Source: a virus
Direction: 5' to 3' (one strand)
Virus record (IMG/VR): IMGVR_UViG_3300005525_000010
Coordinates: 1 to 38,956 of that record
Length of the DNA: 38,956 nt
In this document: in pieces, positions 11,224-12,555 of the stretch
Layout of the letters: each line of letters opens with the position of its first letter
Numbering within the stretch: position 1 is the stretch's first letter
Notes under the pieces: model-generated
Told to the model about the DNA's origin: nothing
The model's input: the letters and a program-made list of their open reading frames with translations, nothing else
The model's database searches: none
Position numbers and translations under genes: made by a program

Positions 11224-11592
11224 ATGAAACTCAACGAGATCAAAGAGGCGGTGCTGGCCGGCAAGACGGTGCATTGGAAGAACGGTGCGTATCGGGTGAT
11301 CTTCGATCCGACGCGTGGCAGTGTGATTGCCGGGTTCCTGATTGAGTGCGTCCTGAACGGGGACTGCACCGGTCTGACGTGGACCAATGGCGTGACCATG
11401 AACGGGGAGGAGTCGGACTTCTTCATCGCTCCGGAGCGGCTGGTGGCGACCTTCCGCAAGCCCTGCGGCGGCGTTGTGGTGGACAAGGATACTTACCACG
11501 AGCCGATGGCGGAGGCGCTTGAGGCTGCGGAGGAGGACGCGCACCGGTACGGGTGGGAGCTTGTGGGCGTGGAGGTGGCCTCAAACATTTAA
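11224..11592 (+). CDS. Small protein upstream of the methyltransferase
   Basis: A 122-aa protein. The N-terminal part (MKLNEIKEAVLAGKTVHWKN, then GAYRVIFDPT) belongs to a recurring mobile-element family in which a short helix is followed by a beta-barrel-like strand set. The GLTWTNGVTMNGEESDFFIA stretch fits the same fold. The C-terminal 40 residues (DKDTYHEPMAEALEAAEEDA) add an acidic helix. The ATG is preceded by GCGCGCAACAACGAACCAACGAACGAC... of which the last 18 bases are A/C-rich, and no Shine-Dalgarno is present. It ends 12 bases before the methyltransferase start. The function is unknown. Confidence 0.7.
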   Translation: MKLNEIKEAVLAGKTVHWKNGAYRVIFDPTRGSVIAGFLIECVLNGDCTGLTWTNGVTMNGEESDFFIAPERLVATFRKPCGGVVVDKDTYHEPMAEALEAAEEDAHRYGWELVGVEVASNI

Positions 11593-11596
11593 CACT

Positions 11597-12496
11597 ATGG
11601 GAGCATGGATAGTACCAAAACAATTACGCACATCAGTCTCTGCACCGGTTACGGAGGAATCGACCTTGGGCTTAGCAGAGTTATCCGAGATATGCGGACG
11701 GTTGCTTATGCGGAGATCGACTCATTCGCAATCGAAGTATTACTTACGCGAATGGAAGCGGGCCAAATTGAATCGGCTCCGATCTGGACTGATGTACGGG
11801 ATTTCCCGTGGGGATCGTTTCACGGAAGCGTGGACATCCTTAGTGCGGGATATCCGTGCCAGCCATTCAGCCATGCTGGGCTGCGACAAGGTGATGACGA
11901 CCCCCGGCATCTGTGGCCCCATATCAAGCGAGGGGTCGAAGCAATTCGACCTGCAATTATCTTTCTCGAAAACGTGGAGGGCCACATCTCGATGGGACTC
12001 TCCAGCGTCATCAGCGACTTGGAAGAGGTGGGTTACCGCTGTTCGTGGGGAATATTCAGCGCGGAGGAATGCGGTGCGCCGCATCGCAGGAACCGAGTCT
12101 TCATCGTTGCTACCGACACCGTGTGCGAACGAGGACAGTTTTCGGTTGAACGGATCAAGTCAGCAATCCAAGACGCTGGAAGCGATGGCACGGCGCGGAG
12201 AGCTGAGGACGGCGATGGGGAGTGGCACTGCATATCCTGCGGACAGGCTGTCTTTGGTGGGTGCGGATGCGACCATGGTGAATCTCGATGTCATCGATGT
12301 GGCGAGTGGACCTATCCGTTCTACTACAGCGCCAATGACGGCTGCTCCCATTGTGGAACCAGTTGGCCAATCTGGGGCGACACCGCTAGGTGGCCCGTTG
12401 TCCCCGTCCTTCGTGGAAGTGATGATGGGCATTCCAATCGGGTGGACCGCTTGCGACTCCTCGGAAACGGGGTCGTCCCAGCAACCGCCTCTCTAG
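11597..12496 (+). CDS. Overlapping second reading frame across the methyltransferase gene
   Basis: A 299-codon open frame, shifted by one base, that starts 8 bases before the methyltransferase ATG and covers all but its last 59 bases. The product (MGAWIVPKQL at the start, then SSSLLPTPCANED, GGPLSPSFVEVMMGIPIGWT and SSETGSSQ) carries LPTPxAxD and LxPxxVExxMGxPxGWT motifs. These recur, as I recall, in phage proteins annotated either as standalone ORFs or as the C-terminal part of cytosine methyltransferases. The same bases read in the other frame give the canonical motif VIII and IX/X segments. Long shadow frames are common here, so openness alone is weak evidence. Either an expressed overprinted gene or a conserved shadow fits. 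Confidence 0.4.
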   Translation: MGAWIVPKQLRTSVSAPVTEESTLGLAELSEICGRLLMRRSTHSQSKYYLREWKRAKLNRLRSGLMYGISRGDRFTEAWTSLVRDIRASHSAMLGCDKVMTTPGICGPISSEGSKQFDLQLSFSKTWRATSRWDSPASSATWKRWVTAVRGEYSARRNAVRRIAGTESSSLLPTPCANEDSFRLNGSSQQSKTLEAMARRGELRTAMGSGTAYPADRLSLVGADATMVNLDVIDVASGPIRSTTAPMTAAPIVEPVGQSGATPLGGPLSPSFVEVMMGIPIGWTACDSSETGSSQQPPL

Positions 12497-12555
12497 CCTT
12501 CAAAACCCTACTATCCGCTATCCACACACTCCACGGGCATCAAACGCGCTCCTAG
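11605..12555 (+). CDS. C5 cytosine DNA methyltransferase with zinc-ribbon insert
   Basis: A 316-aa Dcm-type enzyme transferring a methyl group from S-adenosylmethionine to cytosine C5. Motif I is SLCTGYGGIDLGL (11-23), motif IV SAGYPCQPFS (80-89) with catalytic Cys85, motif VI LENVEG (121-126), and motif VIII APHRRNRVFIV (158-168). The C-terminal RVDRLRLLGNGVVPATA (279-295) is the motif IX/X helix. Between VIII and IX the target-recognition region is short and Cys-rich: C209, C212, C220, C222, C229, C232, C247 and C250 form four pairs, a likely zinc ribbon. No restriction enzyme is adjacent, so it is probably an orphan that protects phage DNA. A second frame overlaps it almost fully. Confidence 0.92.
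   Translation: MDSTKTITHISLCTGYGGIDLGLSRVIRDMRTVAYAEIDSFAIEVLLTRMEAGQIESAPIWTDVRDFPWGSFHGSVDILSAGYPCQPFSHAGLRQGDDDPRHLWPHIKRGVEAIRPAIIFLENVEGHISMGLSSVISDLEEVGYRCSWGIFSAEECGAPHRRNRVFIVATDTVCERGQFSVERIKSAIQDAGSDGTARRAEDGDGEWHCISCGQAVFGGCGCDHGESRCHRCGEWTYPFYYSANDGCSHCGTSWPIWGDTARWPVVPVLRGSDDGHSNRVDRLRLLGNGVVPATASLAFKTLLSAIHTLHGHQTRS

Follow-up and report, generated by a model that had tools for sequence, protein, structure and literature searches.

A cytosine methyltransferase gene in the window (the whole stretch of 38,956 bases analysed here, an IMG/VR virus record, to which all positions refer) is overlapped almost throughout by a second open reading frame, raising the question of whether these bases encode one protein or two and, if two, what the second contributes. 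The sequence-only reading of this locus had described a 299-codon frame, offset by +1, starting 8 bases ahead of the methyltransferase and overlapping it over 892 bases; these values and the coordinates proved exact on rechecking, and every peptide it had cited was found in the sequence. The methyltransferase (frame 0) and the +1-frame product are referred to here as alpha and beta, respectively, with the following features.

11605..12555, + strand: alpha, a cytosine-5 DNA methyltransferase of 316 aa with motifs I-VIII and X, without motif IX
11635..11658, + strand: alpha motif I (SLCTGYGG), from sequence and family alignment
11848..11871, + strand: alpha motif IV with the catalytic Cys (GYPCQPFS), from invariant alignment columns
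11968..11976, + strand: alpha motif VI (ENV), from invariant alignment columns
12076..12108, + strand: alpha motif VIII (APHRRNRVFIV), from invariant Arg columns
12229..12354, + strand: zinc-ribbon-like insert in the alpha frame (CxxC...CxC...CxxC...CxxC), where alpha identity exceeds that of beta
12460..12489, + strand: alpha motif X (LGNGVVPATA), with an identity of 0.83 in alpha versus 0.40 in beta
11597..12496, + strand: beta, a +1-frame protein of 299 aa, predicted to be the second subunit with the recognition region and motif IX, from PHROG 1008, dN/dS and openness in distant homologues
12098..12205, + strand: beta LPTPCANEDSFRLNGSSQQSKTLEAMARRGEL segment, counterpart of repeated WPTPxAxD modules and probable recognition region, from conservation
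12398..12448, + strand: beta motif IX-like peptide LSPSFVEVMMGIPIGWT, from profile alignment, with a beta identity of 0.80

The catalytic frame and its overlapping partner

Alpha was shown to match PHROG 363 (E=4e-59) and Pfam PF00145 (E=9e-37), the latter over profile positions 2-163 of 324 only; PF00145 was matched by all 69 alpha proteins analysed. The AdoMet-binding motif I, PCQ, ENV, RxR and the GN of motif X identify alpha as a C5 DNA methyltransferase. It does not qualify as a single-chain enzyme of this class, as motif IX is missing from alpha wherever beta is intact. The AlphaFold2 model of alpha (pLDDT 73.9) found its best PDB matches in M.HhaI and M.HaeIII (~170 columns), the large domain of which it resembles well, with residues ~190-281 modelled at low confidence.

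The zinc-ribbon-like insert is missing from the 261-aa homologues (e.g. L010), and a similar insert is present in L083 and L088. The underlying module, GCGCxHGExxCxxCxEWTYPFYYxxxDGCxxCG, was observed in the window (12229-12354), L083, L088 and L090, thus in some family members as well as in unrelated classical Dcm enzymes; it is missing from close relatives and has the appearance of a mobile insert.

Beta matched PHROG 1008, annotated as 'DNA methyltransferase' (E=3e-18), as did all 79 beta proteins tested. No match to beta was obtained in Pfam, NCBIfam or the PDB, and its N-terminal half matched nothing outside the beta family.

Openness, selection and start sites in the +1 frame

Homologues were retrieved from viral contigs using the alpha and beta proteins separately, yielding 61 distinct methyltransferase homologues. 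The +1 frame was open over the beta region in every methyltransferase homologue above ~40% identity, and the frequent shifted-frame stops that the sequence-only reading had named as evidence against a gene were not seen in this range. In homologues of ~40-50% identity fetched by the alpha frame alone, the +1 frame was open over nearly the whole gene, the longest open run reaching 460 codons (Phage C75C1). The +2 frame of complete homologues contained 6-35 stops. In L083, the +1 frame is open from residue 66 onward, as in the short form of beta described below; it is closed throughout only in the distant classical enzymes L088 and L089 and in L046, a weak local match.

Such openness could in principle reflect a shadow frame, i.e. 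an untranslated +1 reading of a conserved methyltransferase, since codon composition favours long +1 runs in GC-rich members, for which codon shuffles of single genes gave chance probabilities of up to p 0.10. Synonymous-codon shuffles of the window methyltransferase produced an equally long +1 run in 0.3% of cases, and for many AT-richer homologues 0 of 1000 shuffles reached the observed run.

Selection was assessed by counting only alpha-changing substitutions and asking whether the +1 protein changes too. The dN/dS of the beta frame was 0.32 (95% 0.14-0.56), indicative of purifying selection, compared with 0.96 (0.43-2.57) for the +2 frame and 1.90 (0.88-3.44) for the +1 shadow frame of the neighbouring primase gene. 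Pooled over the same nine loci, four-fold sites at conserved residues differed in 257 of 1051 cases (0.245) in alpha versus 836 of 1978 (0.42) in the primase. The dN/dS of the synonymous class did not discriminate, being low in the control gene as well. The check proposed in the sequence-only reading, selection on both frames, gave a positive outcome, with purifying selection on beta and suppressed synonymous change in alpha relative to the primase.

The beta open frame extends farther upstream of the ATG at 11597 (TTG at 11474), and ATG 11597 is the beta start found in close homologues. It lies 8 nt upstream of the alpha ATG and 4 nt past the stop of the upstream gene, an arrangement in which beta would be translated first, probably coupled to that stop. 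Beta ATGs of this type precede alpha by 2, 5 or 8 nt, with a good Shine-Dalgarno sequence ahead of them in several clades; the window's own beta ATG lacks a good one. Bacterial genomes commonly contain a short form, in which the beta start lies ~180 nt into alpha, just past a beta-frame stop, presumably with its own ribosome-binding site. A Shine-Dalgarno sequence was present at 94 of 142 (66%) first beta-frame ATGs of this short form versus 336 of 2469 (14%) other ATGs; these counts apply to the short form only, as automatic start choice misplaced window-type starts.

Taken at the level of sequence evidence, the +1 frame is a real overprinted gene. The ancient overprinted gene pair that had been put forward as one alternative is supported by a frame that is both open and under selection.

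Division of methyltransferase motifs between the frames

Across 75 loci, alpha was more conserved than beta from PCQ to motif VIII, and beta was more conserved between motifs VIII and IX (e.g. alpha 0.31, beta 0.48 and the +2 noise frame 0.31). In the window clade, conservation passes from alpha (motifs I-VIII) to beta (12100-12204), back to alpha (12229-12354), to the GWT peptide of beta and finally to motif X of alpha; within 12100-12189, identity was 0.93/0.89 for beta versus 0.69/0.44 for alpha. Motif X is located in the beta frame in five loci (L118, L152, L268, L241 and L244, of which the last two are apparently near-identical copies), and in these alpha contains 14, 9, 11, 2 and 2 stops after motif VIII, respectively, compared with none in beta. 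Because alpha decays after motif VIII where motif X is in the beta frame, the alpha linker appears to be needed just to carry motif X. Both the between-frame conservation and this decay suggest that the recognition region probably resides in beta.

The same observations bear on the shadow frame. Beta is conserved above alpha between motifs VIII and IX and persists where alpha decays, which, together with the selection tests, the synonymous constraint and the Shine-Dalgarno enrichment, leads us to reject this alternative of the sequence-only reading as extremely unlikely.

The conserved end of beta, LNPxWVEWLMGxPxGWT, aligned to motif IX of classical Dcm enzymes and nowhere else in 445 columns (P=0.002 global, 0.0035 local), the match being short and of an HHalign probability of 5-9%. 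Two earlier assignments were revised: LPTPxA, described as the shifted reading of motif VIII, sits just downstream of that motif, and the GWT peptide, described as the shifted reading of motif IX/X, constitutes the motif IX-like segment in its own right, overlapping the run-up to motif X. The AlphaFold2 model of beta alone was poor (pLDDT 57) and too weak for a structure search, except for a helix (136-166) and the GWT peptide, with LSPSFVEVMMGIPIGWT forming the block of highest pLDDT. A poor model of the lone protein is as expected if beta folds on its partner, which is not proof that it does so.

Among distinct loci, 182 carry motif IX in the +1 frame only. Five classical Dcm enzymes, including E. 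coli K-12 Dcm, carry it in the chain and gave no beta hit, and a Listeria enzyme (L183) carries it in the chain and scored only marginally for beta (22). In mycobacteriophage A1SD1, the +1 frame is broken and a GWT-like peptide occurs in the chain shortly before motif X. Three loci were left out as evidence because they appear to be frameshifted copies or to contain indels: L178 and L203, whose alpha frame contains the GWT peptide, and L078, in which the frames switch. Separately, LNPAWVECLMGFP was observed for a second time in the +1 frame of Paenibacillus polymyxa plasmid pAP1 (L096:2613-2759), which appears to reflect an internal duplication.

On the basis of these comparisons, it is highly probable that the locus encodes a naturally split two-subunit C5 methyltransferase of the M.EcoHK31I kind in two frames of the same bases. 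Frame 0 would provide AdoMet binding, the catalytic Cys loop and motifs I-VIII and X, and the +1 frame would provide motif IX along with, probably, the bulk of the region for target recognition (the WPTPxAxD modules). We infer that both proteins are translated and that they assemble as a heterodimer into one active enzyme, as in M.EcoHK31I. Its likely role in a phage would be to protect phage DNA from host restriction by modifying it.

Alternatively, beta may be a real overprinted protein with an unrelated function, such as a regulator of alpha, an anti-restriction protein or an inhibitor, which would fit the unmatched N-terminal half and the lack of database matches. This is considered unlikely, as alpha lacks motif IX whenever beta is intact, the end of beta is a motif IX-like peptide, classical Dcm enzymes with an in-chain motif IX have no beta, motifs IX and X occur together in beta of L118 and L152, and A1SD1, with its broken beta frame, has a GWT-like peptide in the chain just before motif X. 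A further possibility, programmed frameshifting after motif VIII that fuses alpha motifs I-VIII to the recognition region and motif IX of beta, draws on the openness of the beta frame across motif VIII and on relatives that have a GWT-like peptide ahead of motif X in a single chain (L099). However, beta has its own start with a Shine-Dalgarno sequence, its part before motif VIII is constrained too, and motif X would be lost in loci that carry it in the alpha frame, making such a fusion very unlikely.

The split two-subunit enzyme may be taken further, to a joint reading with about an even chance of being correct: enzyme segments alternate between the frames (frame 0 holding the catalytic core and motif X, with the recognition region and motif IX between them in +1), beta rather than alpha sets specificity, its WPTP modules vary in number, and these enzymes form a distinct class spread over many bacterial phyla and phages. 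A plausible origin for the recognition and motif IX part of beta is frameshifts inside Dcm genes. A methyltransferase split over two frames was also observed in Mycobacterium phage Llama (genes 74/75; L276), where the +1 frame holds the part from before motif VIII on.

Distribution, annotation and comparison with known systems

A scan for the beta motif across genomes of bacteria and archaea confirmed at least 464 relatives. In all 80 of the bacterial loci that were fetched from these, a methyltransferase overlaps beta in the -1 frame; the 80 include several identical copies and were seeded with the beta motif, so the counts do not represent prevalence. No standalone beta was found among them, contrary to the standalone ORFs that the sequence-only reading had mentioned. 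Of that reading, the overprinted pair was retained and the standalone ORFs were not, and the probable completion of the same enzyme via motif IX had gone unseen.

At least 114 records of named phages match beta. Direct reading revealed both frames in Paenibacillus phage Likha, Acinetobacter phage ABMM1 and Synechococcus phage Ssp-JY39, as well as in Peduoviridae SEN5 and ESSI2_ev129. In Likha, LIKHA_51 corresponds to alpha and LIKHA_52 to beta, and each bears the annotation methyltransferase; beta is the sole annotated protein, named hypothetical, in Ssp-JY39 and a Sphingomonas plasmid. At other loci, beta has no annotation. Repeated alpha/beta loci were observed within one genome, with five in a Roseovarius MAG (L141, L143-L146) and three in Lihuaxuella (L112-L114), perhaps representing repeated prophages. 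PHROG 1008 is in effect the beta family, and its label 'DNA methyltransferase' hides the fact that its members overlap the catalytic protein rather than being it. Since gene finders drop one of the frames, methyltransferases of this kind, if produced as annotated, would be missing one subunit and seem dead. A study of 48 P. larvae phages does no more than list two methyltransferases, and our literature search found no paper describing such an overlap in phages.

Classical phage Dcm genes carry a different +1 ORF of ~128-163 codons with a conserved RYFLSxKACxGILRRAEKRGKxLPxxL (L088:3257-3637, L277, L278 and L279; longest-run p 0.004-0.016 each). The genes carrying it include those of the P1-like RCS47 (dmt), Streptococcus phage Javan112 and Vibrio phage VpaJT_1, and 136 phage records match it, suggesting a possible second overprinted family.

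The split enzyme would turn a curiosity of the 1990s, motif IX on a second polypeptide, into an apparently common design in phages, prophages and bacteria, and would explain a protein family mislabelled in databases. The overlap is one of the longer ones among same-strand gene pairs with deep conservation, and it provides a clean case in which to test how frames share selection.

Two-polypeptide C5 methyltransferases (YGGCCR) are represented by M.EcoHK31I and M.EaeI, and the smaller M.EcoHK31I gene is reportedly nested in the larger one in another frame (attributed to Lee, Kam and Shaw, 1995). The genes of M.AquI, which is split into alpha and beta after motif VIII, overlap by a short 11 nt. 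L118 and L152 divide their motifs as M.AquI does (I-VIII / IX-X). The window differs in having motif X in alpha and an overlap of 892 bases, and the M.AquI-type division was found only in L118, L152 and similar loci. In M.EcoHK31I, the larger subunit contains motifs I-VIII and X and the smaller only motif IX, with the recognition domain predicted in the larger subunit (PMC3404938). The same motif split was found here, with motif IX assigned by a short profile alignment and M.EcoHK31I compared by its description, as was a small gene overlapping the large one in another frame. In contrast to M.EcoHK31I, beta starts before alpha, spans almost the whole gene and is phage-borne; no restriction gene was noticed beside the window locus. 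The published prediction of recognition in the large subunit also differs from the pattern seen here, where conservation between motifs VIII and IX lies in beta and alpha is near the noise frame; window-clade alpha additionally has the zinc-ribbon-like insert in this region. The ShiLan domain, an out-of-frame HNH that represents a mobile endonuclease insert, likewise places an additional protein in a different frame of a phage methylase gene (PMC11855218); beta, in contrast, lacks an HNH, extends across the gene and would probably complete the enzyme. The kind of enzyme is known from M.EcoHK31I; what appears to be new relative to the literature searched is how nearly complete the overlap is, how widely the arrangement occurs and how labour is divided frame by frame.
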